This document shows positions 7,325-64,000 of a DNA stretch of 64,000 nucleotides, in pieces. The stretch is from Diphasiastrum complanatum. Taxonomy: Eukaryota > Streptophyta > Lycopodiopsida > Lycopodiales > Lycopodiaceae. The first letter of the stretch is position 1; every line of letters begins with the position of its first letter. The position numbers and the translations under genes are program-made. The DNA lies in the NCBI GenBank assembly GCA_029204225.1, contig CM055092.1:46317486-46381485 (forward strand). Direction: 5' to 3'. The notes below the pieces were generated by a model that did no database searches, was not told where the DNA came from, and saw only the letters and a program-made list of their open reading frames with translations.

Positions 7325-8258
7325 CTAAAAGCTAATATCATTAATATTAGCTACACATCTCTCTGTTTCATTGGATGCCTTAACATAATCACAAAAATCA
7401 TATGTGTGTCTGATTAACAACACGTTTGGCTTTGGCACATACAATTCCTCGACAATGCTTTGAAGCACTGGAAAGAAAATGTCTTCTTGCATCTCAACCT
7501 CTTTGAAAAGCAACTAAACATTTGATCAATTTGACCATGGGTATGCCCTACCAACAAAAATCGTATTTTTATTTTTTTGAAATTTTTTTTCTCAGCAAGC
7601 ATAGACAAATATGCCAAAACACTTTGGTTTTTATTTTTCCTAGCAGTGTTGCCAAGTTGCAAATAAAGTATTTCTGGAAGATTTTCACCGAATTTGCAAA
7701 TTATCTTATGTACAATGGTGGTCGTCAAATTTGGATCATTTCGAACGTTGGGACAATTATAAAAGACTTTGGACTCCAAAGTGCCATTAAACACAAGTGC
7801 TCCAACGAGATGAACTGAATAGAATCTGCCTCGTTTAAATTTGCACTTTGACAAAATGAGACAACATTGTTTTCTTCTGATCCATGCCGTCAATAACAAG
7901 GCCCAGATACTTTTGTGAACATTCCAAACATTTCATTCAATGCTTGGCCAACTTTGTCTTTCAATTGTTTGTTGATCTCTGCGCACTTGAAGGGCTTTTG
8001 TAGCATCCACTGAAAATACAATGAACATATTTAATAGAAGAAAGATACTATAATGATATTAAAATAGATTGCAACTTAAATTTATTTCAAAACATAAAGT
8101 ATAATTAAAATAAAAGACAAATCTGATTAATATTTACCTTTCTCATCATTGGTTTTGCAAGTTGTTTTGCAGACTTTAATAACTTGCAAGTAGAGCAAAT
8201 TGTCATTCGTGATTTTTTCGGAATCTGTACCAGTCCAAAGTCTCTTTTCCAAACTATA
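7325..8258 (-). pseudogene. DUF7869-like protein pseudogene with a 128-bp intron
   Basis: Read leftwards: exon 1 ends LAKPMMRK at 8138 with a GTAAATA donor; the acceptor TTTTCAG ends at 8010 and exon 2 resumes in phase. Downstream come VIDGMDQKKT (about 7890), then after a frameshift QLGNTARKNKNQSVLAYLSM and FLLVGHTHGQIDQMFSCFSK, then VPKPNVLLIRHTYDFCDY. These match the pattern of the DUF7869 family (I-I-D-G-M-D-Q; DN-x-x-x-E-N-K; L-P-V-G-H-T-H-x-x-I-D-Q-x-F), of unknown function and found in plants and animals, often near mobile DNA. The Asp expected before NTAR-K-N-K is Gly here. Two frameshifts make it non-functional. Confidence 0.7.
8010..8137 (-). other. Probable spliceosomal intron in the DUF7869-like pseudogene
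   Basis: The minus strand reads AAG|GTAAATATT at the donor and GTATTTTCAG|TGG at the acceptor. Removing 128 bp joins two frames in phase 0. The intron is AT-rich, as usual in plants. Confidence 0.55.
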
Positions 8259-8605: not shown

Positions 8606-8760
8606 AAAAAACAATTAAAAGAAAAAAACCAAAAAATAAAAATCATAAAAAAGAAAAAAAAGAAAAAAAAAAGACCGTAAAAAAAATCGTATAAAAAAAA
8701 GGTCGAAAAAAAATCGTAAAAAAAAAGACCGTAAAAAAAACAAAACAAAACAAAACAATA
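8606..8760 (+). repeat. A-rich tract with CCGTAAAAAAA / TCGTAAAAAAA units
   Basis: Almost pure A interrupted by periodic CGT or CCGT trinucleotides and an AAAAC run. This looks like the degenerating poly(A) tail of a SINE or other retroposon that ended at 8605. Confidence 0.6.
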
Positions 8761-13239: not shown

Positions 13240-13803
13240 ATGGCATCTATAAATGCATATCTTTTGGATACTAATGAAAGGCTCAAAAAAACTAACTATT
13301 CTATATGGAAAGTTAGAATGGAATCCATCATGATCATGCATGATCCGATGGAAATTTTAAATGGTAAGGAGGGTGAACCTATTCATCCTCAAGAAAAAGC
13401 CAAATACATCAAGAGGTGCAATGTTGCACTACATTGCATAAAAATGAATGTTGCAAATGAACTCTTAAGAGAGGTAGGATATTGCACTTCGGCTCAAGAT
13501 GCTTGGGGGACTTTGCAAAAGGTCTACGAATCCAAGAACCAAACTAGAATGTTAGCTTTGAGGAATCAAATCTATAGAAGCTATCAAAAGAAAGGAGAGA
13601 GTGCACATACTTTTGTCCTAAGAGTAAAGGAATTGAACAAAGAGCTAGCCTTCATAGGTGATCCTATCAAGGATGAAGAGCTTGTTCAACTCATATTGAA
13701 TGGACTAAGCTTTGAATTTGACAATTTGGTTCAGGGATATGCAATTATGGATAAGCTACCCATACTTGAAGAACTCCAAGGCACACTCATCGCCAAGGAA
13801 TAA
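13240..13803 (+). pseudogene. Nested copia gag (capsid part)
   Basis: A 187-codon frame from an ATG 5' of NERLKKTNYSIWKVRMESI, the usual copia gag start, through AWGTLQKVYESKNQTRMLAL and SFEFDNLVQGY, typical of the gag_pre/UBN2-like capsid domain. A TAA at 13801 stops it; pol continues in the same frame 12 bp later, so gag and pol were one frame. The stop could be a C-to-T change of CAA or a G-to-T change of GAA. Its product would assemble the particle in the cytoplasm. Confidence 0.85.
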
Positions 13804-13815
13804 AAAAGGAGCCAA

Positions 13816-16790
13816 ATGCAAGAGAGGATGGATAGGCTTTCCATCCAAGGTGGAGATGACCAAGCTCTCTTCACCAAAGGAAAAGACAACTCCAAAGGCA
13901 AAGGATCAACATTCAAGAAGTCTACAAAGCTTGAGGATCAAGAAGGACCCTCAAAGGGATCTCCATCAACCACCAAAGTCAAGAAGGACAAATCAAAGGT
14001 GAAGTGCTACTATTGTAGCAAGATGGGGCATTATGCCTCGGAATGCCTCAAGAGGAAGCAAGATCAAAGCCAAGCCAACATGAGCAAAGAGGAGGAGGAG
14101 GAGAGTTCACATGAGGACTCTCTCATGATGTCCATATTTTTTTCAACAAGCTTCAAAGGAGAAGATCCTTGGTGGATTGACTCGGGTGCTAGTTCACACA
14201 TGACTAGTAAAAGGGAGTTTTTCTCTTCTCTCTTATCTTATGATGGACCTATAAAGTCTATCTATACAGCAAATGATGAAGCTTGTAAGATTGAAGGAGC
14301 TGGTAGCATTCCCCTTTGCTTAGGATCTTCCAAAAAGATCAACATAGAAGGTGTTTTGTACATTCCTACAATAACAAAGAATCTACTAAGTGTTGGCCAA
14401 ATGGTAGACAATGGTTTCAATGTTGACTTTGCTTCAAATGAATGTTTCATCAAGAAGAAGGGTAAGATAGTGGCTAAGGGCACTAGACTTGGCAAACTTT
14501 ATAAGTTGGATGCATTTGTGGATACTAATGTTGTCATGTTGGCCGAGAAGAGCAAGATATATACCTTTACTTTATGGCACAAAAGACTTGGACATGTCAA
14601 CTCGGGTTCCATGGAGGCTATGATCAAGGAGGAGTATGCTTTAGGCCTACCAAGGTCTATTGGGAAGGAAGACAAGGTTTGTGAAGCTTGTGCCTTATCC
14701 AAGGCACATAAGAAGGTGTTTCCTAACTCCATCACAAAGTCATTTCATCCTCTTGAACTCATACACTCGGATGTGCACATTGCTAGCACCAAATCTAATG
14801 GAGGTTCATCCATGTTTTTAACCTTCATTGACGACTACTCAAGATATTGTTGGGTGTTCTTACTTTCCTTCAAGTCTCAAGTATTTGATACTTTTGTAAA
14901 GTTCAAGTTGTTTGTGGAAAAGCATCATAATCATAGCATCAAGATTCTTAGAAGTGACAATGGTGGAGAATTCATCTCCAATGACTTCAAGGCCTTTTGT
15001 GAGGAGGAAGGGATCAAGAAAGAGACTTCTTGTCCTTACACTCCTCAACAAAATGGAGTTGCTGAAAGAAGGAATAGAACATTATGTGAATGTTCTAAGG
15101 CTTTAAGATTAGATGCTTGTTTTCCCAAATCCTTTTGGGGTGAGTCTCTTGTATGTGCAAACTACTTGATGAATAGGGTGTCTTGCAAAGCAATTGAAGG
15201 CAAAACTCCTTATGAGATGTTGTATGGAAAGAAACCCAATCTTAATCACTTGAAAGTTTTTGGGTGTATATGTTATGTGCATGTGCCATTGGAAACAAGA
15301 ACCAAGGAGGATCCATCTTCCACAAGAGGGATCATGCTTGTATATGCAAGCTCAAGCAAGGGCTACAAAGTCTATCTCCCATCCTTGAACAAATTTGTTG
15401 TTTCAAGGGATGTCATCTTTGATGAACATCATATGCATATGCTTGAAGAAGGCTCAAGTGCTCCAACAATCAAAAAGAAGATGGCCGAGGAGCAAGATCT
15501 TGGTTTCGAGGAGGAGCTCATGGAGGAGCAAGCACCAAACCCACCTATCACACCAAGGAGATCTTCAAGGGCAAAAGTGGAGCCATCAAGGCTCACATAT
15601 CAAGGCAAAGGACAGCAAGTTGAGGGTATCTCATCCACTTCTTATGCTTTATCTAGTTTTGAAGAACCGTCTAATGTTGAAGATGCATTGAACTCCAAAG
15701 AATGGTATAAAGCTATGTTGGATGAGTATGATGCCTTGATTGAGAATGAAACTTGGTTGCTTGTTGAGAGACCTCAAAGGAATGTAATAGGATGCAGGTG
15801 GGTCTTCAAGCTTAAGTTGAATGCAAATGGGAGTGTTAACAAACATAAAGCAAGATTAGTTGCAAAAGGTTATGCTCAAGAGAGAGGGATAGACTATGAG
15901 GAAACTTTTGCACCCGTGGCCAAGATGGTCACAATAAGGCTAATCATTGCACTTGCATCAGATTTTGGATGAATTCTATGTCAAATGGATGTCTCTAATG
16001 CTTTCTTGAATGGTTTTTTGGAAGAGGATATCTATATGGAGCAGCCACAAGGGTTCATCAAGCATGGAATGGAGAACAAAGTATGTCATCTCCAGAGAAG
16101 CATCTATGGCTTGAAGCAAGCCTCGAGATCTTGGAATTCAAGACTACATTGCTATCTTATTTAACTTTCTTTTTTCAAAGTGAATATGATACCACTCTTT
16201 ACATTAAGTTTGATGACGTTGGTATTGTACTTTTACTCATTTATGTAGATGACATCATCATTAGTGGAAATAATGTTGATGGTATTGAGAAAATCAACAT
16301 AGATCTATCCTTAGAGTTCAAGATGGTAGATCTAGGGTGTCTTCACTTCATCTTAGGCATAGAAGTACTTAGAGGGTCTGATTTTATCTTTATAAGTCAA
16401 GTAAACTATGCTCAAAGTCTTTTGAAGAAGTTTAAGATGGAAGTATGCAAAAGTGTTGACACACCAATGGAGCAAGATGTAAAAGTGCCAAATGAAGATG
16501 ATGAAAGATCCTTCATGGACATCACTTTGTTTAGGCAACTTATAGGTTCCTTAATGTGGATCACTATAACTAGACCAGATCTTAGCTTTAGTGTATGTAG
16601 GTTGAGCCAATCCATGCAAAAGCCATTGAATATCCATTCGAAAAAGGCTAAGAGGATTCTAAGATACATCTCGGGTACATTGGATTTTGGGATTCTATAT
16701 AGAGGAGATGTGATTAACCTTCATGCATTAGTGATTCAGATTTTGCAGGGGACAAGAGGGATAGGAATGTCACACGTGCCAAATAGCATA
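13816..16790 (+). pseudogene. Nested copia pol: zinc knuckle, protease, integrase, reverse transcriptase
   Basis: The frame open from 13816 to 15972 has, in order: the nucleocapsid knuckle CYYCSKMGHYASEC (14005-14046), protease WWIDSGASSHM (Asp at 14179), the integrase zinc region (LWHKRLGH ... CEACALSKAHK), the core HSDV, LRSDNGGEF and AERRNRTL (D, D, E), and the start of RT (GCRWVFKLKLNANGSV). A TGA at 15970 replaces a Trp-like codon; after a frameshift near 16137-16160 the RT continues with YVDDI (16242-16253), SLEFKMVDLG and TRPDLSF. RNase H begins in a shifted frame near 16728 and is cut off after about 20 codons. At 718 open codons it is the best preserved coding stretch in the window. 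Confidence 0.92.
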
Positions 16791-16828
16791 GGATTCCATT
16801 CATAAGGATGTTCTCAAGTAGATCTAAG

Positions 16829-17372: not shown

Positions 17373-19467
17373 GTCCATACAGACTTTTGAACAAAAGGAA
17401 AACTTTTGATTCATCACCTTCCTTCACAAAACTTGGAGGTTGCGCCATATAAATCTCCTCCTCAAGGTAACCATTGAGAAATGCATTAAAAACATCAAAC
17501 TGGACTCATGCTCCATTTGTGAAAACATGCAAGAGAGATGAGTATTTGAATTGTTACCATCTTTGCAACTGGTGCAAAGGTATCTTCATAATCAAGACCT
17601 TTAATCTGAGAGTAGCCTTTAGCACAAAGTCTTGCTTTATACTTATTGATAGATCCATCATGATTATACTTGATTCTGAATACCCACTTACATCCGATCA
17701 CATGCATGTTGTTTGGTGGCTCCACAATCTCCCATGTGTTATTTGACATCAAGGCTTCAAATTCTTGGGTCATTGCTTCAACCCACTTCTTGGATTGAAA
17801 AGCTTCTTGGACATCCTTAGGCTCTTCATTTGATATAAAAAGTGCATGATAGGAAGTTTCACCTTCCACTTGCCTTCCTTCTTCATCATATGTGAGCCTC
17901 CTTGGCTCAGATCTTGCTCGTGTAGATCTTCTTGGTGTGATAGCTTGAATCTGCTCCTCCTCAAGCCTTGGCCTCACCTCTTCTTGAACAACATCAAGGT
18001 TGATGATTGATCTTGCATGAGTCTCTTTGATCTGAACATCATCCAAGTTAAATTTCTGATCTTCATGGAAGACCACATCTCTACTAACAACATTTTTGTC
18101 AGTAGAGGGCAAATAAATCTTGTATGTTTTTTTAGTAGATGCATAACCTACAAAAATTCCTTTCATTACACTAGGATCTTCCTTCTTTCTAGTTTCTATA
18201 GGTACATGCACAAAGCATGCACAGCCAAAAATCCTAAGATGATCTACCTTAGGCTTTTTCTTATACAACATCTCAAATGGTGTCTTTCCTCCTATTGCAA
18301 GATTTGGAAGCCTATTACAAAGATAGTTTGCACATGCAACTACCTCTCTCCAAAATTCTTTAGTCAGAGAAGCGTCCAGCCTAATGGCTTTTGCACATTC
18401 ACACAAAGTTCTATTTTGTCTCTCAACAACTCCATTTTGCTGAGGAGTATATGAACAAGAAAACTCTCTTTGAATGCCCTCTCTCGCACAAAAGTCTTTA
18501 AACTTATTGGAAGTGTATTCCCCTCCACTATCACTTCTTAAAGCTTTTATCTTGAAGGGAAACTACTTCTCCACATAAGCTTTAAAAGTAAGAAAAACAT
18601 CATAAACCATGGCTTTTGAAGACATCATATAGATCCAAGAATGTCTTGTATAATCATCTACAAAAGAGACAAAGCAGTTGGCTTCTCCTTTGCTCTTAGT
18701 TGATGAGAAACGAACATCTGAGTGTACAAGTTCAAATGGTTGCTTTGTCTTGATACTTGATCTGTGTGACTTTGCCAGCACACATGTTTCACAAGGTAGA
18801 CCAACAACTTTTCCTTCTTTGACCATAGATTGCATGGCTTTGAAATTGGGATGACCCAATTTCTTATGCCACAGATCCTCCTGTAGAACCTTGGTCTCAT
18901 AAGCAATATCTAAAATGTTAGCACTCTCCCTAGAATCTAGTTTGTATAACTTACCAATTCTAGATCCTCTAGCAATAACTTCATTTTCTCTTGAGATTAT
19001 ACACTTGTCAACTTGAAACTTGACATCCAATCCACTATCAAACAACTGTCCTACACTAATGAGATTCTTAGTCAATCTAGGTACATACAGTACATCATGT
19101 AAGCAAAAAAATTTTGATGATGATGCATGTAATGGAATACTACCTATTCCTTCAATCCTACACTCTACATCATTAACAGTATAGATTGACATTTTTGGAC
19201 TTAAATATGGCATGAGATTAGCGAAAGAGTTCTCTCTCTTAACACTTCATTGATAACATTCATTTTTATAAAATGAAGGGCAATTCTGGTTCTTTTGTGG
19301 AATGTTGCAGCTTCATTAGGTGCAGCAGGTTCTTCTTTAGCTCCACTCACAATATTCATTACATCTTGTAGAATCAACAATGATTCCATTTTGATCTTCC
19401 ACATTGCATAATTGGAAGATGTTAATCTCTCATTGTGCTCTAAGAAATGTGAACCAGTTGAAGACAT
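17373..19467 (-). pseudogene. Copia gag-pol, 5' piece: gag start, integrase, start of reverse transcriptase
   Basis: Leftwards from 19467: gag begins MSSTGSHFLEHNERL and runs about 80 codons, then jumps at about 19210 straight into the protease C-terminus and gag-pre-integrase region (VPRLTKNLISVGQL, LWHKKLGHPNF). The zinc knuckle and the protease DSG are deleted. Integrase follows with HSDVRFSSTK, FVDDYTRHSW, LRSDSGGEY, YTPQQNGVVERQNRTL (D, D, E present), a stop near 18566, then GCKWVFRIKYNHDGSINK of RT, a frameshift near 17500, FNAFLNGYLEEEIYM and SLYG at the nested insertion. It joins the piece at 10795-11866. Confidence 0.9.
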
Positions 19468-35268: not shown

Positions 35269-37800
35269 TTAAAGTTGCATAGAACCATTGTCAAACACCT
35301 CTATGACTTTAAAAGGTCCAAGCCATCGCATATGGAGTTTTCCTGGGAACTTTTGATGGCGACTGTCATATATCAGCGCATAATCATCAGCTTTAAGATC
35401 ACATTTTTTTATATGACTGTCATATTTGTTCTTTCTTTGTTCCTGGATTTCCTTTGTTAATTTTTGTGAAGACTCACGAGCTTCAGCTAGTTCTTCAATA
35501 TTAGTCAACCTTTCGTTTATACATTCTGCATTTGTTCGTTGAGCTTGGATACGAAAAGTTTTGACCTCAAATTCAATTGGCAGAATAGGATGCATACCAT
35601 ATGTTAGAAAATATGGTGTCTGTTTCATCGTGATTTTCTCTGTTGCGTGTGCAATAGTAATTTTAGTCAGGATCTTACATAAAATTCCATTACCTCTTTC
35701 TGTCAACCCATTTGCTTTTGGATTATACGGTGTAGTTTTTCTGTGTTTGATGAGGAAATAAGTTGTCAACAACCGTATAGTGTCATTTAAAAAATGTGTA
35801 CCTCGATCACTTACCAGTTCGAGTGGACAACCATATCTGGTGATAATACTTTTGAATAAGAACGTCGCGACAGTTTTTGCATCATTTTTTTTTGTCGCCT
35901 CTGCTTCCACGTTCTTTGTAGTATAATCCATTGCAACTAGAATATATCGACATTTCGTATGTCGGGTAACAGGTTTAATTGGATCGACAAAGTCAATCCC
36001 CCACTTCTTGAATGGTGCAAGAGGAAGGATTGGTGTCAACGGCCAATTCATTGATTTTGTAGGCTTACCAGATCTTTGGCATGGATCACATGAACAAATA
36101 AAGTTTGATACATCCTTAAACATTGTTGGCCACCAATACTTGGTAGTCAATATCTTATAAACTGTGTTCTTCAAAGCAAAATGTCCACCAACATCTTCTG
36201 AGTGTAAGCCTTTAACGACCTTTTTAATATCTTTGGATTCGAGACATCTTCGAAGTTGATGATCTGCACCAAGCTTGTACAGAACATTGTTAATAATTGT
36301 ATAAGGTGCTACCTTATATTGAAAAACTGTCTTTTGCTCCAAATCATAACCATCCGAATATATTTGATCCTTGAGATAAGTAATGATATCAGAATATAAC
36401 GAATTTGTAGATGAAATCTCGAATAAATGTTCGTCTAGAAAATCATCATTGATAGGATCTTCAAATTTTCCAGTGCTAAGTCGCGATAGATAATCAGCAT
36501 TTGTATGATACTTTCCTTGACGAAGCTCTACTCGATAAGTGAATTCTTGCAGAAGTAGAACCCATCGAGCAATTCGTCCTGATAGATCTGGTTTATTTAC
36601 AAGATACTTAAGAGCATAATGATTCACATGAAAAATAAATGCATATCCCAGCAAATAATGCCAAAATTTTGTAACAGTGAAAATCATGCCAAGTGCTTCC
36701 CTTTCTGTAGCCGAATACTTTTTCTCTGATGCACTGAGTTGTCGACTCGCATAGTAGATGGGATGATCCTTCTTCTGGTCGTCCTTATGGCTTAGGCAGA
36801 CGCCAATAGCAAATGCAGAAACATCCACATAACTGTGAGATAAAATAGCCCAGTTGGGTGGTCTCAAAATAGGAGCATTGATCAACCTTTGCTTAAAATC
36901 TTCAGATGCTTTCTATTGTTCATTCGTCCACAAGTATTCTACTTGTTTCTTCAGTAGATGGGTAAGAGAAGCAACAATATAAGCATGATTTTGAATAAAT
37001 CCCTTGTAATAGCCAACATGTCCTAAGAAAGCTCTTATTTCACGTAAATTGGTTGGTATCAAGAGGTTTTTTATAAGCTCGATTTTATCTTTGTCGACTT
37101 CTATTCCTCTGCTAGATATTCTGTGTTCGAGCAATATTCCTTCTTTCATACCAAAAAAACATTTCTCTGAATGAAGAGATAAACAAGTATCTCGACACCG
37201 TTGCAATGTTAATTTCAGCTTCTGCAGGTGTGTCTTTATATCACTGTACACACAGAAATCATCAATAAATATTTCAAGAAAAGTTCTCAGGAAGGCAATG
37301 AAAATTAACATCATGATTCGTTGAAAAGTTGCTAGAGCATTACAAAGACCAAAGGGCATTTTGTTGTAGGCATAAGTGCCCCAATCCATCGTGAATGTGG
37401 TCTTTGAGCGATCCTCCTTTCGCACTCCCACTTGATTATATCCAGAAAAGTCGTCACAGAAACTATAACGCTCTTGACCACCAACCTAATATAGGATGGA
37501 ATCAGTAAAAGGCAAAGAATGATGGTCCTTCCTGGTGGCAGCATTGATTTTTTGAAAATCCTGACATATTCGCATTTTGCCAGTCTTCTTCTTCAGGACG
37601 ACAACAATGGGTGAAACCCATTCACTACTTAAGACGAGATAGATTATATCTGCCTTAAGGTGTTTGTTAAGTTTGTCCTTGACCATTAGAGAGTATTTAG
37701 GATTGAGACGATACTTTCTATGTCGAACAGGTACAGCATCTTCCTTCAGATCAATTCGGTGCTCTCCGAATTCTGCAAGTATACCCTTCAAATTGTCAAG
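35269..37800 (-). pseudogene. Ty3/gypsy pol (element B): reverse transcriptase, RNase H, integrase
   Basis: Leftwards from 37800: RT start (WVSPIVVVLKKKTGKMRIC), FSGYNQV, MPFGLCNALATFQR, FIDDFCVYS (catalytic Asp pair), FLGHVGYYKGFI; RNase H (YVDVSAFAIGVCLS, YSATEREAL, HTNADYLSRL); integrase zinc region (H-x4-H-type GLHSEDVGGHF ... CSCDPCQRS), core GIDFVDPI, VSDRGTHF and GLTERGN (D, D, E) and a GPF-x-V end (LGPFKVIEVFDNG). No chromodomain. A 538-codon stretch (35269-36885) is open; other parts have a stop near 36912 and a frameshift near 37430-37490. Protease is deleted. Confidence 0.92.
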
Positions 37801-37829
37801 CGGACAGACAAAAACACATCGCTGTCACT

Positions 37830-38537
37830 GGAATCAGTCTTAGACTTTCAAGATTTCTTCGTTGATCGCCGCTTTCACGCTAATTTTGAAGTCTCAAAAT
37901 TTTCTGCACTAGCTATAACAGCTGCTAAGGAGTTCATGTCCCCTTGTCTGCAGTATCGATCAATCTTTGGTGGTAGACTGGCCAAAAACCATTCGATCTG
38001 CATATCCATGGGATATACACCAGTTAATTTTCCTATGAGGTTTTTAACCTTATGTGTATATTTGCGAAGAGATTCTTTACTCTTCTTTTGAACATTGTTC
38101 AGTCGTCCAAGAATTCTAGATTTGTAACCTATCTCTCTGAACTGGTTCAGAAACGCATCTTTCAATAGGTACCAAGTTCCTACACGGCCTAGTTCTACTT
38201 GGCTATACCAGATATGCGCCTGCTTTCTTAGTAGACCAGGGAAAATTCGTAGTTTGTCTACGTCAGTTCCCTCGTTATTCGCATTGGCTATTGACTCAAA
38301 TTGTGAGACATAGCTATCTGCATCATCGGAGCTGGTCCCTTTAAAATAATCATATTTAATTTTAGAGATAGAAGTGAAGCGTGCAGCAGGACCCTCCATA
38401 CCGAAGCTAATTAGGAATTCAAGTAACTGGGCAGTGATTTCGTCTAGATTTCTACGACTAATACTTTCACTCTGTCTTCGTAAAAGCTCCTCTCTAAGCT
38501 TTCGGTATCTTTCTAATCTTGATTCTTTATCTGACAT
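37830..38537 (-). pseudogene. Ty3/gypsy gag (element B), 3' end deleted
   Basis: A 220-codon open frame from MSDKESRLERYRKL through DDADSYVSQFESIA, WYSQVELGRVGTW, FLNQFREIGYKSRI, MDMQIEWFLASLPPKIDRYC: a complete capsid-type domain. It then breaks at SDSD near 37820, where sequence jumps to the RT region. The related copy at 26305-27396 shows what was lost: the acidic stretch, the zinc knuckle and all of protease. Confidence 0.9.
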
Positions 38538-51321: not shown

Positions 51322-54077
51322 TCACTGCGGTGGCCAATACTTGTGCAACCGACTACTGTTGATGGGTGTGTCGAACGGTGTCCCATCTAGCTTCTCTAGA
51401 TTCACGACTCCATGATTAAGAATTTCCTTGATCTGATAAGGACCTTCGCTTGTGAATTTTAATTTTTCCTTGATCGCCTTGGTTTTATACATCAGGACCA
51501 GATCTCTGGAACGAAGATCCTTCTTTTGTAACCCGCAATCGTGCCATGCTTTGCGTCTTTCCTTTTCAACTGCCAGTGCATGCACAACTAGTAAGCGTGT
51601 TTCACAGAGTTTATGTAGAGCTTCATGGCATAGTTGTAGAGATTTGGATTCATTAAGATGTTGCATTGTAGCAATCCTTAATGAAGGGACTAAAAACTCT
51701 ACCGGCATTACAACATCCTGACCATATACCAAGTGGAAAGGTGTTTGATCAGTGCTTCCCTTATATGATGTCCAGAATGCCCACAAAGTAGCATGCAACT
51801 TATGTTCCCAATCTGATCTGCTAGCTTCAACTGTTTTCGTGAGCATGCTACACAGGATCTTATTGGATGATTCTGCTTGTCCATTACCGCGAGGATAATA
51901 AGGCCTACTGGTTCTAAAGATCACTAAGAATTCCTCCAACAGGACCTTGATGGTCTCATTGATGAAATGACTTCCGTGATCGCTGACTAGCTCCACCAGG
52001 CATCCAAAGTGCACAATGATATTTTCATAAAGGGACTTGGCAGTGGTCCTAGCATCAGCTACTCTTACTGCCTTGGCTTCGACCCACTTGGTGAGATAGT
52101 CCATGGCTACACCTATCGAGCCTGGGTACTCCTTGCTGCAGGGTGAATTGGACTGATGTAATGCAATCCCCACTTTTTGAATGGTGTTTGGGCTAAGACC
52201 GGGTGCAGAAGGTCATAATTCAATCTCGTTGGTCTCCTCGCCCTTTGGCACATATTGTACTTTCTCAGGTATTCCTCTGTATCCTTATGAATCGTTGGCC
52301 ACCAACATCCTGATTGCAGAATCTTGCGACCTGTAATGTCGGATGCAAAATGGCCTCCACTCATGCCTTCATGTGAGAGTGAAATGATTTGGGTGGTCTC
52401 GTGTGGAAGAATACACTGCCGAAGAATCCCATCTGGTCTTCTTTGATACAATTGGTCAGCAATCAGCTAATAAGGTCTAGCTTTCAGGATCAATTTCCGC
52501 TGATCCGCCTTTGGTAGTGATTTGTCTCGTTGGCCCCGCATTAGATATTCAACAATGTCGGCAGCCCATTCTGGTACTGTGTCCACATAAAATAAGGCAG
52601 CATCGGCCAGCTCATCATCGGGTTGGGTTGCAACCTCCTTCCCCTTGATTCGTGACACATGATCTACCACGTAGTGTTGTTTTTCCTTGTGGACTACTAT
52701 CCGAAAATCAAACTCCAAAAACAGAAGTAGCCATCTGGTGATTCTTCCGGTGTTGCAAGTTTTGTTAACGAGATAGAGCAAGGGCTGATGGTCTGTATAA
52801 AAAGCAAAATGTGTGGCCATCAGGTAGTGCCAAAATTTCTTAACCGCATAGATCATTGCTAGTGCTTCCCGCTTTGTGGTTGAATAATTTATTTCTGTAT
52901 CAATCAGCTGTCGACTTGCAAATCAGATTGAAAAATCCTTTTTGTGTTCACCTAGCTGGGTTAAGACTGCTCCAACTGCATACTTCGATGCGTCTGTATG
53001 CACATGAAACTCAATGGACCAATTGGGTGGGCGTAAGATTGGTGCTGAAACCAATGCATCCTTAAGCTTTTGGAAAGCCTTTAGGGCTTTCTTGTTCCAA
53101 TATAGATCCGTTGTGAGTTTCTAGATTGGTTGGGCTAGCTCCGCAAAATCTAGAATGAAGATCCTATAATAGTTAGCATGACCCATGAAGATGTAGACTT
53201 CGCAGGTTGTCCCTGGTGGTGGTAGATCAACAATGATTCTGATCTTTGATAGGCATGTGGCGATCCCGTGTCTTGACACTATATGGCCGAGAATCAAGCC
53301 ATGTGTAATCCAAAATTGACATTTTTCTATATTCAAGGAGATCTAAAAATTGCGACATTTTTGTAGCACTTTCTCCAAACGGGACAAGTGTTTGGAGTCT
53401 GGTCCATGCATGCACAGATCGTCCAAGAAAATTTCTAGAAATTTTTGCAAATATTCTTTGAATGTCGCCTACATGACATGCTGAAGTGTGCTTGGGGCAT
53501 TGCAAAGTCCGAATGGCACTTTATAGGCATAGGTTCTTCATTCTATGGCAACTGTTGTCTTGTGTTGGTCTTGGGGGGCTATCTTTACCTGGTTGTAGCC
53601 ATCGAAGCCGTCTAAACAACTGTAGGCTTCGGCGCCAGCTACTCTGTCGAGGACACTTTTTGTAAATGGTAACGGAAAATGCTCCTTTTTGGTGACTGCA
53701 TTGAGCGCCTTCAGATTCACACAGATTTGCATTTTGCCGTTCTTCTTGGGTACTATAACTATCGGCGATACCCATTCTGTGTGCTCGATTTCATAAATGA
53801 AATCTGCATCTAGCAGCTTCTACAACTCCTGCTTGATCAGCTCTATGTAGTTCGGGTTGCAGCGATAGTAACGATTCACCTTGGGGACTACTCCATCCAC
53901 CAAGGGTATGGTGTGTTGGACTATAGTTGGTGGAATGCCCTTCAGATCACAATAACTCCAGGCAAAACAATCTTTATACTCCACCAACAATGATCGTAGT
54001 CTCTTGAACTGTGTGGGTGTTAATTGCTCTCCCACATGCACTATTTTTTCTTCTTCACCTGGCTCGGCAAGGTTCAT
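51322..54077 (-). pseudogene. Ty3/gypsy pol (element C): reverse transcriptase, RNase H, integrase
   Basis: Leftwards from 54077: EEKIVHVGEQLTPTQFKRLR, CFAWSYCDLKGIPP, RT with WVSPIVIVPKKNGKMQIC, FDGYNQVKIAP, VPFGLCNAPSTLQHVM, FLDDLCMHG (catalytic Asp pair), RNase H (VHTDASKYAVGAVL, YSTTKREAL, FYTDHQPLLYLV, HYVVDHVSR), integrase zinc region (HEGMSGGHFASDIT ... CQRARRPTR), AMDYLTKWVEAKAV, VSDHGSHFINE, GNGQAESSNK (core D and E), ending LNHGVVNLEKLDGTPF. No chromodomain. Stops near 53820, 53530, 53120 and 52457 and a frameshift near 52150 inactivate it. Distinct from element B. Confidence 0.92.
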
Positions 54078-54206
54078 CGGATGTGTTCACGCAGGTCCCT
54101 CGAAGACTTGTTTCGCTGGTGCCTGACTTTGATCAGGTTCTCGCTGGGCTTGCGACATCATGATTACCACGTCGTCCAAGGTATAATTCTTGAAAGTCTC
54201 AAGTAT

Positions 54207-55400
54207 CTACTGAACTGGATCTCGTCGAGATTCCTCCTTCAGCATATTGATCTTAGCCCGACTGGTCATCTTTTGATTTTCTGTCATCTGAGTAGGGGAC
54301 GACACTGTATCTGAGTCCATCTTGATTGACTTCAAGGAATTCAACACCTTTTTTTTGTCATTTTGGTCGTCCTTGTTGTCTTTCATCAGAACTGACGTGA
54401 CATTCGCCTCGTGGTTGCGAATATCAACATCCACTATAGCTATAGCCTCCTCGAGTAGATCACTCCATCGGATTACATGGTTGTAGCATTGTTTCAAATT
54501 ATTCTTCTTATTCGTAGGGGCCTTTGCTGGGTCGATCATTGAAACCTTCGCCATAGCAAAATTTTGCGGCGGTTGAGCTAGTACTTTCTTGATTCCGTAA
54601 CAATCTGGGTCCATGTGGTGTAGGACCTGCTCATCAGTCAGTTCAATCTCCTTATTATAAGTTAGGGCATGATACCAAGGGACTAAATCATCGTCCACTG
54701 GGTTCTCAATAGGTTTTGCTGACAGCCATGCTACGTTTATCATATTCACCCCAAATGTGATTGGTGTGTCCATAGTGTAACATTTGGGTGAAGATGTGCT
54801 GGGTTCAGAATTTGATTCATATTGACATGCCCTATAGTCAATAGTTGCTAAAGCATCCATCCATCTCTCGACATCCGTCTTTGAATCATAGTGACCACCC
54901 TTGGCTGGCCTTGGGCAAATCGTGTGATCTGTCGTGGATGATCCGTCATCAGCATTGGGTGCAATAGGTTTCACCGCCCATGTAGTTGGATCAGCATTCA
55001 CAGCCTGCTCTCTATTCTCAAATGTGAGTTTCCCTGTACCCCAGTTGTGTACTACTTGCGCAGTCCTCAACCATGGTCTTCCCAGTAAAACACGATATGT
55101 TGTTGGAGATTCAGGTATATCCATCACTACAAAAGTGATCACAAATTGCATGCCTACTATTTTTAGAAGGATATCAGCAACTACACCCTTTGGTTTTACA
55201 CAGGATTGATCTGCTAGCTTGATGGCGAATCTCGTTGGCTTCAACCCTTGTAAACCCCATTTTTAATATAAAGTGAGATCAAATTGACACTTGATCCTCC
55301 ATCTACTACTGTTGCCTTGTCCTCGTATGTCTTGTGTTTAATTGGCAAGGTGATGTTGTGTTCCTTACTTTCTCACGCTGCCCCAATGTGGAGGACGCTA
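54207..55400 (-). pseudogene. Ty3/gypsy protease region (element C)
   Basis: The minus strand encodes KATVVDGGSSVNLISLY with the retropepsin Asp-Gly-Gly (55292-55303), a stop near 55255, then FVVMDIPESPTTYRVLLGRP WLR-type C-terminal part of the protease (I/V-L-L-G-R-P-W). A 345-codon open frame (54207-55244) then continues as a linker with an acidic and Lys-rich end before RT. Protease would cut the Gag-Pol polyprotein. Confidence 0.85.
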
Positions 55401-55775
55401 CTTGTTTCTTCATAGCCCGTATAATATATGGGCTCAGGCGCTACTGGCTCCTCGTTGGTTTTGGCCCATTCAGCCAAAAGGCTTTTAGCTTGTGGCGCAA
55501 TCCGCAGTAATTCCACGGCTTGCCAATAAGATTGTCATGCCTTTCAGTGCGCGGTTCCTCGAGCTCTACCATGTGAAAAAGTGGTTCATGACAATGCAAC
55601 CGATCGTTCTGATCAGTGCACTTGTGGTTCCCATTCGTCGTCAGCTGGAGGTTCCATAGGATTGTCCCTTTCTTGCTCTTTTTCCTCCGCTTGGGCTCTC
55701 TATACCCAGTGTCGTATTCTCTGGTACTGTCTTCTTTCTTCCCTCACATTTGGATATGGCACTGAAGTTGGGGGC

Positions 55776-56530
55776 TAGTCATCAGTGACCGATGGTGATG
55801 GTGAGGGAGCCACTTCCTTCCTCTTCTGTGTTCGCATAACAGCTAACACAGGAGCATGGAGTTGTTGCTCTTCCGATGGCATCCCCGTTGGAACTGCTGG
55901 TTGTTGTATTGCAATGAAGTTTAGCGGTGCACTGGTTTCAGGTCTCAATGGACAATTCTTGAAGCAATGTCCATAACCACATTCTCAGTAGAAGGATGTA
56001 TATTGTCTTTTGTAAGGACATTCTGCAATTCTGTGTCCTTCGCCACATCCGTAGCAGCCGTAGGTCCTCCCGCCTTGACGTTGAGTTTGAGCTGCATAGG
56101 CTACAAAATGTTTATTTATGGTAGGATCCATAAATGGTTTGTCCGGTCCATACCTTTGCTGCTGCTCAAGTAGAGGTGGTACTTGCATCTCTGGTTCCGC
56201 TACTGTTAGGTTTATATTGGCCACTTGTTGATTGACTGGCATTGGCCATATGTTGTTGCTGATTCGGTGTGCCATACCTCGGTGCCGCGTTTGGTGCTCC
56301 TTGATGATATGGATAAGAAGTCTGATAAGGACTTCTCTTCTGTTGAACAATCCGGGGGTTAGACGGGCAAAATGCCGTATCGTGCGATGTTGCATTGCAT
56401 AGATGGCAAAATCTATGTATCAGTCTCAGATTTTGCTTTAGGACTGGACACTCGTTTGTTGTATGATTTTGTGTGCACATTGAACACCATACATTCTCCC
56501 GTCGTGGGTTAAGGAGAAATAGCTTGCTTG
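55776..56530 (-). pseudogene. Ty3/gypsy gag C-terminal part with several zinc knuckles (element C)
   Basis: Leftwards: CTQNHTTNECPVL, CHLCNATSHDTAFC (C-x2-C-x4-H-x4-C), a Gln/Pro-rich spacer, then CYGCGEGHRIAEC (C-x2-C-x3-H-x4-C) and ECGYGHCFKNC. Several knuckles in tandem are typical of some plant gypsy gags. The capsid half is missing, as recognisable sequence stops near 56530. Frameshifts lie near 56200 and 55985. Confidence 0.8.
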
Positions 56531-59339: not shown

Positions 59340-60430
59340 AGGGGGTTTTTGAGAAATAATGCCAATTTCATTCCTATACTTTGTCAGTTTTTTAGAGCAC
59401 TCATCTTGCATGTTCACGTTGAGCTTTTCCATTGGGTGAGCCCTTTCAAAAGGAGTTCCGTTGAGTGTGAATCTTAAGGTTGTCCTAATTCAAGGATCTT
59501 TATAAGTTTGTATAGTTAATAAAATTTGTTGATGATTATAATTTTAACACAACATAATCCATGGTTGATTATACATATGTTTGTATATTATTTTTTTCAA
59601 CATGGTTATAGTTGATCTTATTTGAAGGGATGTAAGAAATTGGAAAATTGCATCATAATATTGTCCATTACCAATGCTTTGTAACATGAGAACATTAATA
59701 TGATGTCGATTTGATAGAAATAGAAGTTATCACATGAGGTAGTGACAGACAACAAGTTAGTTGCTCAAAGCAACAAGTTGCGCAAAGATTAGATACATAC
59801 ATTTGAAATTGCTAAGTATCAGCTTGTCATTGAATTCACATGAAGAGATTTGACATGATAAGATTTGTTGATGACTACTATGTTGTTGTATTAAACAACA
59901 TAATCACGATCACTATATCCAATATATTTTGGTTATTACTTACAGTATATTCGATTAGTATTCATAGCTTATTCGATCTGTAGTCTCAAAATTAACAATG
60001 ATTATGCAAGAGTATTCACGCTTAATATTCATGATTTGTATATTCACAATCAGTATTTCAGAATATTCGTTTCTTAGTATTCACAATTTTAAATCAGTAT
60101 TCACGATGTTCATGATCAGTATTCACAATATTCACGATCAAAACTCGCAATTTTTACTATTAGTATTTCAGAATATTTTTTTCTCAGTATTTACAATTTG
60201 AGATCTCACAAACCATCAATTAAGTAGTCTTCGGGATGCATATCTAAAAATTTGACCATTTCTTCATCCAATACTGAAGACATTTTGTATATGTCCTTCA
60301 AAAGAAAATATAAAGATCACACTGTTTTGTAGTTTTCTACTCAATTGATATTTTGCTCATTTGGACTTTTGGGACTATTGGTACATGTAGAAGTTTATAA
60401 ACAACTATTATAGTTTTCATGCTTACTCAG
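59340..60430. other. No gene seen; AT-rich
   Basis: Low-complexity AT-rich DNA leading to the downstream end of the leftward gene. It contains the TATTCAC repeats listed separately. Confidence 0.5.
59950..60200. repeat. Degenerate AGTATTCACRAT repeats
   Basis: AGTATTCA or TATTCAC occurs about ten times in 250 bp (e.g. AGTATTCACGCTT, AGTATTCACAATTTTAAATC, AGTATTCACGATGTTC, AGTATTCACAATATTC), with TTTCAGAATATT twice. Confidence 0.6.
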
Positions 60431-61825
60431 ATCAACATACGCAGCATAGAATGCATAATGAGAAGATCTGAACATGGAATTCACTGGTCCATATCCTAAT
60501 ATTTTTCTTAACAAAAATTATTTTATGCACCCTATTAAAATTATGTCCTCCAAGAAAATGAGAAAGTGCCTTGATTGTCATAATCATTGTTTTCCCATGT
60601 TGATGAAACTTTGAATGAGCAACACTTATCTCATTATTCTTCATGAACTTTAGATAATGCCCTAGTGCATGATCTCTTGAAAATTCTCCAACAGAAGATC
60701 TATGCCCTCCTCAACAAATTGCAAAATCATCAAGGTAAATTGTTTTCTGAAAAATACAAAATAAGCTCCAGTATAAAATCTGACATTATAGATCAACTAG
60801 AATAAGACAAGATACAAAACTTACACATTCAGCTTTGTTCTCCTTGATTATTGTCTCACCATCAATATTATGTCCACCTCTCGATGTCAATAAGGTTGGT
60901 GAATAGACAATTGGTTTTGGAAAATCAAGATGATCTTGAAATCTGAGGAACTCCTCTTCAGAAGGAAAATGATCTTCTTTTTGGTGCATTTCTTCAACAG
61001 CCATTTTCAAGCAATCTTACCCTGAATAAAACTCATCCTTATTTACATCGTCAACACCAGAGAGAAGATCATCAACATCATAATCAATTAAATCAGAAAA
61101 TTTATGAAGCTCTTTGCTCAAAATTCAAAGAGTCTCGTCCTCTGTGAAATAAAAAAAATCTGATATATCCAATAATGTCAAAAAAAAATTAGTATCTATA
61201 TTGTAAGTAGGCAAGGTGATTAGAGATTTATCAAAAGGACCAATGATAGTGGTAGTTCTAGGACCTATAAAAAGAAGCCCTATTTTGAATAGGATCAAAA
61301 TATGTACAATCATCTAAACTAACGCTCATGTCAATAAAAAAAGATTCTATATCTACAGGCTTGGACTTGTCATATTTTCTACAACTGGAAGAAGGAGCTT
61401 CAAAAGTAGAAAGAACAGCCTTCGGATCGTCGAAAATATTTAACAAATGAAAAAAAAATAAAGGAAGACTGAAAATCTACAAATCTACACTTTTTATTGT
61501 GTAGTTGACAATCATCTACAGACTTGAAATCATCATGCACCTTGGTGAACATTTTGTCAAGCTTAGCTTTATAACTATGCTTATCGAGGTTCACCAAGTC
61601 ATGATAATGAATCATGTCCTTATTTTGAGATCTGAACAAGGGGGTACTGAACAAAGACTTAAATCAGAGATAAATCTCTAAAAATGCTTCTACACCAAGA
61701 TCCTCTATAATAGACGAAAGAACAAAAATAAAAGGAGAAAAAAGTGACTTAAAATACTCTATATTGTCACTAATACCAAATTCAAAAAAAAAAAAAGATA
61801 GCAGACTAAAATCAAAATTAGACAT
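60430..61825 (-). pseudogene. Unrecognised intron-containing gene, leftward member of a divergent pair
   Basis: Leftwards from an ATG at 61825 (MSNFDFSLLSFF): about 410 codons are traceable through two frameshifts (near 61460 and 61270) and four in-frame stops, each explicable by a single transition. The first half is acidic (KAKLDKMFTKVHDDFKSVDD, KPVDIESFFIDMSVSLDD); the middle has DYDVDDLLSGVDD and HFPSEEEFLRFQDHLDFPKP. An intron of 78 bp (60824-60747; TGT|GTAAG ... TTTTCAG|AAA) joins AEC to KTIYLDDFAI in phase. Exon 2 has GGHRSSVGEFSRDHALGHYL and ISVAHSKFHQHGKTM. The protein looks cytosolic or nuclear, with no membrane segment. I do not recognise the family. Confidence 0.5.
60747..60824 (-). 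other. Probable spliceosomal intron, 78 bp
   Basis: Minus strand GAATGT|GTAAGTTTTG at the donor and TTTTGTATTTTTCAG|AAAAC at the acceptor; splicing keeps the frame. Confidence 0.6.
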
Positions 61826-62772: not shown

Positions 62773-64000
62773 ATGGCTAGGACTGAATCCAATGCCCGTG
62801 TCAGTACGTCTGTACAACCTTCCCATGTACGTGTCCCTCGTAGAACTGGCGACGACATGGTAGGAAGCAGGTCTGGCTGAGAGAGATCAAAAAACTTTAG
62901 AGATCAACTAAATTGTCGATCTGTTAAGAATGTCACCCTGTCTCTGGGACGTGATGTTCGTTTTGCCGTGACAGCCATGTAGGCCTTACATGGTGCTGTA
63001 GAAAATTTTATGTCTTAGTTTTTTGAGGATTCTTGTCTTCTGGTCATGCATGGTAAGCGTGTTACCATCATGCCCAAGGATTTCGTTATTCTCAAAAGAG
63101 TTCTGAACCATTATTCAGGTCTTCATGTGGATAACGCCAACACCTTCAGAGATCTGTCTCTAGAAAGATCAGACTTGCCAACTACCTCAAGGAGGAAAAT
63201 GAAGCAGGTTGTCCCTAAAAAAGCTGGATCGCGTAGGCCAGCTGCTTCCCTTCCTCCTAAGGTAATCCCTACAAAACAACTCGGATCGTCCTGATCTCTA
63301 AATCGGGCTCTAATTCAAAAATATAATCATCTCCTCCTCATGTTACTCATCAACCTCCTCAAAATGTTTCTTCGCTAAAGGTGGAGATAACCCAAAAGGA
63401 GCTTGACAAGATAATAGAGAGATCTATAAATATTGTGTCGACATCTATTTCAAACCCTGTACATAACCTTTTTGTTAGGATCCCATATAATTTCAACCAG
63501 ATGTTTTTTCATTCTGAGCATTACAATCAATATGAATCTTATTTAGGAAATAAAATTGATATGATTGACAGCTATTTTGAGTTTTTTCTTCCAGATTCAA
63601 ATAGAAACTATAAATTAGGTCCCAAATTTTGTATAGAGCTTAAAGATAAAACTTCAGAATTTACAGATGTGATTGTTGAAGTCGGCCAAAAATTTTTGCA
63701 ACATTAGTATGGATTCCAACGAAGTCATTTTTTTGGTTAGTCCATTTTTCATGGGTGCAGTGAAGGCAAAAGAGGCCACTTTTGAAAGGGCTATATATTT
63801 CATCCATTGCAATCCTGTGGCCAAATTCTACATGATTCCATATGAGAATAAGTAAGGTTTGCTATATGATATTGATGCCATTTATTTTGATGATTATACT
63901 CCTGTTAGAATTGATTCTGATTTTTATTTTGATTATTGCAATCGGCATTAGAGACTGAATATTCTTTCTGTGAAATAAATAAGGAGGAAGTATCAATTTT
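62773..64000 (+). pseudogene. Histone H3-like domain fused to an unknown protein, rightward member of a divergent pair
   Basis: From the ATG at 62773 the product begins MARTESNARVSTS, matching H3 residues 1-11 but with Glu for K4 and Val for K9. After a shortened tail comes a histone fold: RDVRF, AL, FFEDS and HGKRVTIMPKDF align with H3 helices 2-3; by hand 23 of 50 positions from RDVRF to the last Arg match canonical H3. In-frame stops at 62878 (TGA), 62980 (TAG) and 63016 (TAG) break it. A basic linker (RRKMKQVVPKKAGSRR) follows, a frameshift near 63285, then about 130 codons of unknown type (EITQKELDKIIERSINIV, HSEHYNQYESYLGNKIDMID), another frameshift near 63690 and more (FVSP-like, ERAIYFIHCNPVAKFYMIPY) to the window edge. 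RVTIMPKD favours canonical H3 over CENH3 as ancestor. Confidence 0.7.

Follow-up and report, generated by a model that had tools for sequence, protein, structure and literature searches.

Histone H3-like sequences have been described within hAT transposons of Dothideomycete fungi, where they reach up to hundreds of copies; the same source lists 26 copies in Pyrenophora tritici-repentis, some of them possibly functional, and reports that in P. fijiensis 94% of the copies match the third H3 exon only and are RIP-inactivated (PMC6710886). The elements described here, from the lycopod Diphasiastrum complanatum, also place an H3-like sequence in a DNA transposon, but the fungal cargo is, as that source presents it, an ordinary H3 copy, whereas the present one is divergent and diversified, carries extra domains and travels with a different transposase. 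The TET/JBP transposons of fungi likewise bear an epigenetic cargo gene, and some of them belong to the CACTA/Transib group, as here; their cargo, however, is an enzyme acting on methylcytosine, in contrast to a putative nucleosome component in plants (PMC12730594). The VANC proteins of Arabidopsis VANDAL elements are element-encoded anti-silencing proteins (PMC10398659; see also PMC5735166). They counter host silencing, which by analogy is the function that we propose the element H3 may have, but they act via sequence-specific binding, and the abstract of PMC10398659 mentions no histone fold. Histones of parasitic genomes, some with unknown fused domains as here, are also described for viruses (PMC9145170), whereas our family consists of TIR transposons and four queries from it had no match in IMG/VR. 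Finally, CENH3/CENP-A proteins have a divergent H3 fold, and in our comparison of seven rows (five provisional sequences and two from a protein search) five carried a loop-1 W, as do subfamilies D and F and the fern-type proteins discussed below; CENH3/CENP-A are host genes, however, and the element H3 is transposon cargo. No report of a transposon H3 variant was found among the best-ranked papers of searches in an open-access library.

The window, the whole stretch of 64,000 nucleotides that was analysed (C1:46317486-46381485 of the 1.74-Gb genome), contains at 62773-63855 an H3 fold preceded by an H3-like start and followed by a C-terminal domain, with in-frame stops and frame changes (Table 1). 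The initial annotation had recognized an H3-type start and a fold with KRVTIMPKD, and both were confirmed; because an intact subfamily A protein finds the region by tblastn with E 1e-22, the match is not due to chance. R83, H113, K115-T118 and D123 are the same in this copy as in subfamilies A, B, D, E and F. A search with Pfam Histone (PF00125), proposed at the outset, gave 20.5 bits for the window fragment alone, below the cut-off of 26.4, and succeeded with the relatives from subfamilies A, B and D (98, 101 and 89 bits, respectively). The fold had been described as followed by unrelated protein, which did not hold, and the fusion is not one open frame. Counted on the translation, stops fall at codons 36, 70, 82 and 174 of the frame starting at 62773, and two frames are needed to read the C-terminal domain. 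This domain matches the C-terminal domain of relatives that keep it in a single frame (tblastn, 33% over 103 aa with E 1e-8 for D and 29% over 111 aa with E 7e-9 for F), and by reading only its end resembles the intact F end, EIFVVSPFF...IIPYCSK. A 43-row tree joins the window copy, which has a long branch, to D and F with support of 99/97. Its place in the tree and a C-terminal domain shared with D and F led us to reject an ordinary host-H3 pseudogene.

The companion ORF2 is left as several pieces upstream of the H3 remnant, and an ORF4 remnant lies beyond the window end (L021 1117-1866, equivalent to window 65117-65866), so the element extends past the window. No transposase remnant was detected by tblastn in the window or the following 10 kb, and no TIRs were found for the window element, which is dead and either partial or heavily decayed. 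These analyses show that the window feature is an old, inactivated gene copy, and that it stems from a family of DNA transposons that have TIRs at their ends and are present in many copies. Since it is broken it can mimic nothing, and the earlier idea of a nucleosome mimic does not apply to this copy. The remnant is located within a repeat-rich stretch of the window, in which Copia-like/Gypsy-like retrotransposon ORFs (type by reading only) lie at 13240-16805, 17495-19213, 35269-38537 and 51322-56395. A minus-strand ORF at 7414-7899 contains a VGHTHGQIDQMFS motif that may resemble a domain known from a different plant transposon protein.

Table 1. Features of the window copy (window coordinates) and the near-palindrome of B-type elements (oriented locus coordinates), with the basis of each assignment
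Feature	Position	Strand	Basis
H3-like N-terminus, MARTESNARVST...	62773..62877	+	translation; homologous starts in other copies; first in-frame stop at 62878-62880
Helix-N/alpha-1 remnant in another frame, stop inside	62850..62921	+	tblastn, 58% over 24 residues to subfamily F; translation
Remaining H3 fold and basic linker	62917..63291	+	A-protein tblastn, E 1e-22 over 62917-63234; translations
GKRVTIMPKD	63052-63081	+	translation
C-terminal domain, first part, another frame	63381..63707	+	tblastn with D and F; alignment
C-terminal end of the fusion, VIFLVSPFF...IPYENK stop, first frame again	63673..63855	+	translation, by reading
Companion ORF2 remnants, several pieces	60413..61684	-	tblastn, A_O2a E 1e-22, A_O2b 6e-23, A_O2c 2e-11
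Near-palindrome	L011 5420-5556; equivalent places in L012, L013, L018, L019, L020		

The genome search with PF00125 reported 153 matches, almost all of which were listed; its scoring covered 150 of 6325 first-look candidates. Thirteen matches at 163.7-165 bits were all ordinary H3, and the lowest three listed (82.8-84 bits) were exons of intron-containing H3. The other matches listed, at 95-110 bits, mostly started late in the profile and often lay in frames of 200-400 codons, and all 12 loci fetched from this group belonged to the H3-fusion family. Unbroken frames of 331-527 codons occur elsewhere in the genome in subfamilies A, B, D and F. Such intact paralogues answer the concern, raised with the initial annotation, that two separate genes had been joined only by chance. 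The subfamily A protein of L009 (L009:4985-5968, 328 aa) starts with MDRRKQTRRD and continues with the fold, a basic linker and a C-terminal domain, and the same layout is found in subfamily D (L037, a 527-codon frame starting with MARTKQTTRPK) and subfamily F (C1393, L065/L066, a 351-codon frame starting with MARTKQAARLT). A, D and F extend about 200-280 residues beyond the fold. The subfamily B protein (L019, 417-codon frame) starts with MARTKQTARDPRV, has about 300 tail residues with a proline run and, like H3, terminates directly after the fold, with LARRLRRERN. In subfamily E (L045, 131-codon frame) the fold was identified in the short stretch that was read. Weak Pfam matches to the CENP-T and CENP-S folds appeared alongside Histone.

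Some further features of single loci were observed. In the internally deleted copies L040 (subfamily A, C7:53543500-53545000) and L041 (subfamily B, C17:8896300-8897800), part of the transposase frame is open into the H3 fold, over 412 and 196 codons, respectively. Residues 148-164 of the L009 protein, in the linker that follows the fold (PTKRPRKQTAPKRAPKK), resemble H3 tail residues GGKAPRKQLATKAARKS, a similarity that is not significant (-0.3 bits).

The element that houses the L009 H3 gene is bounded by perfect TIRs of 35 bp (46-80 and 8692-8726), and a related A copy, A_C2, is about 9.3 kb long. The B TIR measures 38 bp and is 100% complementary on two ends within one rearranged region; in B_C11 and B_C17 a single B TIR end precedes the H3 start by about 2.2 kb. 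A length of about 8.6 kb for the B element is suggested by the genome positions of TIRs and gene starts (start C2:563131 to TIR C2:569607; TIR C1:20402060 to start C1:20404319), as no complete copy was fetched. Both TIRs have CATTAG ends. With up to three mismatches allowed, the genome contains 2378 matches to the A TIR and 1828 to the B TIR, together with 602 A and 194 B H3-gene starts, and the reversed controls gave 0 throughout. The genes are arranged as transposase(+), ORF2(-), H3(+), ORF4(-) in A and as ORF4(+), H3(+), ORF2(-), transposase(-) in B. All four A genes found a match in B by tblastn, with identities of 47-49% for H3, 24-54% for the transposase pieces, 30-34% for ORF4 and 30-33% for the one matching ORF2 piece. 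At the D locus ORF2(-) is followed by H3(+) and the transposase match is marginal; the short E and F stretches, which end before the expected place of the transposase, gave no match to it. The element ends gave no clear target-site duplication: a 3-bp flank match (TCA, AAT) was seen in two of nine end pairs, some of which are perhaps not true mates, and none was seen in the two contiguous A copies. The adjoining transposase and two further ORFs, the TIRs and the intact frames identify the window-type gene as an H3 variant encoded by a transposon rather than a gene of viral origin or two sequences joined by chance, and the view of an H3 fold fused to another domain within a mobile element is thus borne out. 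Two repeat structures were also noted near the H3 genes. One is a near-palindrome of about 137 bp (80-89% self), found in six B-type loci a short way past the H3 gene (Table 1), and it may be a binding or regulatory site; the other, at L009 4531-4632 upstream of the A-type H3 gene, consists of two 44-bp repeats, 58 bp apart, with ACACGTGT at both ends.

The A and B transposase carries the D-D-C(2)C-H(4)H-E signature of the CACTA/Transib/RAG1 group. A D-D-C(2)C-H(3-4)H-E layout is given in PMC12730594 for the CACTA/EnSpm, Mirage, Chapaev, Transib and RAG1 transposases. A search with exons 2 and 3 of the B-copy transposase (492 aa) returned 48 relatives at E ≤0.01, of which 45 are nameless, two are called 'hypothetical protein' and one is a fern gene model covering 14% of the query. 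When 18 of these 48 were aligned with one A and one B sequence, D367, D464, C484, H536, H541 and E575 were present in all 20 rows and C487 in 19; we infer from this sequence pattern which acidic residues would be catalytic. The 18 homologues matched no transposase family at E ≤5 among the 25 of 47 families listed. The element's own pieces likewise matched none at E ≤1 among the matches listed, and no PDB transposase match was obtained.

In the alignment of subfamilies A, B, D, E and F with H3, the residues R69, R83, E97, F104, D106, H113, K115, R116, V117, T118, D123 and R129 are identical to H3 in all five. Only E differs at P121 and K122; none of the five subfamilies retains R63, and R49 is replaced in A, B and E. 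The group formed by R83, H113, K115-T118 and D123 comprises what we take to be L2/DNA-contact and H3-H3 bundle residues. NG86 counts for the fold gave dN/dS of 0.21 (95% interval 0.12-0.37) for six A copies and 0.32 (0.16-0.65) for nine B copies, both biased downwards because the copies were picked by histone score; shifted frames of the fold gave 0.81-1.47 with wide intervals. ORF4 and two ORF2 pieces, which played no part in this picking, had values of 0.34-0.44 in four A copies, with intervals below 1 (shifted frames 0.67-1.28). The H3 linker together with the C-terminal part gave 1.02 (0.59-2.41) in four close A copies, the C-terminal part gave 0.65 with all seven A copies, and the transposase piece gave 0.89 (0.51-3.33) in three. 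The linker with the C-terminal part and the transposase piece were not clearly below their shifted frames, some of which were lower (0.20, 0.42 and 0.70). These values fit selection on active lineages with decay after insertion, which is unproven for the C-terminal part.

At the N-terminus, the window copy has E at position 4 and V at position 9, as had been read initially. K9 is also absent from the relatives in this genome whose start was read, and loss of K4 is not general. K4 is kept in 21 of the 24 A copies with codon 4 read (the others have R, R and M), in all seven B copies and in the single D and F copies. Position 9 is D in 23 of 24 A copies and G in one, D in five B copies and G in two, P in D and L in F, so that no family copy of this genome with its start read has K9. 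One sample of 20 start regions comprised 19 A-type and one F; codon 4 was uncovered in the A-type L053 and L056, and L053 has N at position 9. The sequence MARTKQTAR is exact in four of seven B copies, the other three having one substitution or a stop within it. ARTKQTTR in D and ARTKQAAR in F are near-exact versions of ARTKQTAR, and DRRKQTRR in A and ARTESNAR in the window copy are not exact. Conservation of codon 4 among the near-identical B starts was set aside as evidence, since by reading of about 100 of the 194 places listed many of the changes are at CpG sites. MARTK opens all but one (P0086) of 11 similar proteins from other sources (P0022, P0083-P0092); of the ten that have it, nine carry K at position 9 and one carries R. 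Loss of K9 is therefore not a general feature, and the notion that it is the rule is contradicted by these fern and metagenome proteins. An alignment of nine proteins from other sources shows no variation at M, A, R, T, K or the T at the second position after this K, and the later tail is mostly unalignable. The shared feature is thus an eight-residue H3-like start and not K9 loss, which is a trait of the elements in this genome.

Similar H3 fusions occur in Ceratopteris, as a cluster of 13 member sequences, and in metagenomes, and the nearest named proteins outside the genome, for transposase and fusion, include those of the ferns Adiantum and Ceratopteris. A 25-row tree, which leaves out 15 other H3-like proteins, the window copy, P0117 and P0086 of the 43-row tree, places the five element H3s on one side of a branch (89/87, below the support mark), and in it the fern/metagenome H3-fusion group is firm (100/99). 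A clade of both groups was neither demonstrated nor rejected (p 0.33), and a clade of both with plant CENH3 (p-AU 0.26) or of both with H3 (p 0.14) was not rejected. The element H3s are not near host H3 in either tree. Profile comparison of the C-terminal domains of the element and fern/metagenome proteins gave just 36% probability, so a domain common to both was rejected; the other C-terminal searches had P0022 in the query profile and are no independent test. P0128, a metagenome protein of 335 aa with eight member sequences, opens with MARTKQTARR and, after a long charged insert, has its H3 fold at the C-terminus, which parallels the layout of B. Several candidates were discarded: P0001 and P0002, which topped the initial protein search, are not relatives but gene models in which two copies of ordinary H3 occur. 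Among candidates for the host CENH3, C20:35713900 and the exon matches on C7 and C22 are H3 variants with introns, and C11:15454700 is an H3-like fragment only. A host CENH3 was not found in the genome search, and PHROGs gave no match.

These findings suggest that the elements interfere directly with host chromatin. Reasoning from sequence, we consider it an evenly balanced proposition that the transposon-carried H3 variant enters nucleosomes and there counters silencing or guides insertion. The element H3 would pair with host H4 and enter nucleosomes or H3-H4 tetrasomes, and its N-terminus would be recognizable by H3-tail readers and K4-modifying enzymes. The K9 silencing site is missing from the element H3 of this genome, and such nucleosomes would carry no K9 mark. 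Through the extra domain or tail, other proteins of the element may be linked to this chromatin, and the element would probably gain resistance to silencing or guidance of insertion. A more specific version is put forward tentatively: CACTA/Transib-group transposons of seed-free plants may deploy a selfish histone, their own H3 variant, in nucleosomes at the element, where the K4 part is kept and, in this genome, the K9 site is not, so that the host could not silence the element in the usual way.

The main rival is that the histone fold serves as a dimerisation or DNA-binding module of the transposition machinery, comparable to NF-Y, CENP-T or TAF, and never replaces H3. The weak CENP-T and CENP-S matches, the large extra domains and the replacement of R63 in all five subfamilies and of R49 in three agree with such an adaptor, which we regard as possible, if doubtful; a generic fold, however, needs neither the H3 tail start (exact in four of seven B copies, near-exact in D and F) nor the conserved R83, H113, K115-T118 and D123, and B terminates after the fold like H3. 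Derivation from CENH3, with the histone steering the element or its chromatin to centromeres, would agree with the RW in loop 1 of D, F and the fern/metagenome proteins, which resembles the W of five of the seven CENH3 rows, with the LLIP-type alpha-1 of D and F and with the clade with plant CENH3 that was not rejected. We judge it unlikely: A, B, E and the window copy have no loop-1 W, the clade with H3 was likewise not rejected, five of the seven CENH3 rows are provisional sequences, and the host CENH3 was not found.

Capture of a host H3 or H3 variant that merely hitch-hikes by transduplication and has no role has its precedent in the H3 captured by hAT elements of Dothideomycete fungi (PMC6710886), but we hold it to be distinctly improbable here. 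Divergent subfamilies retain the fold, the tail start and the adjoining ORFs, the element H3 is not near host H3 in the trees, and there is a purifying signal, though with copies picked by histone score and with a value near 1 for the C-terminal part. The viral origin considered in the initial annotation, with the protein as a viral histone mimic, could appeal to the histones fused to unknown proteins that large DNA viruses have (PMC9145170); with no relative in IMG/VR (pattern-based scans, four queries) and with TIRs, a transposase and a copy number typical of a DNA transposon, it is barely credible.

Transposons and their hosts contend over chromatin, and DNA demethylases and anti-silencing factors are already known as cargo of some elements. 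A DNA transposon whose standard gene set includes a dedicated and diversified H3 variant could supply the nucleosome itself. The elements and their relatives also offer naturally occurring H3 proteins whose tails are altered, some having K9 and others lacking it, with which it may be asked which tail residues plant silencing needs.
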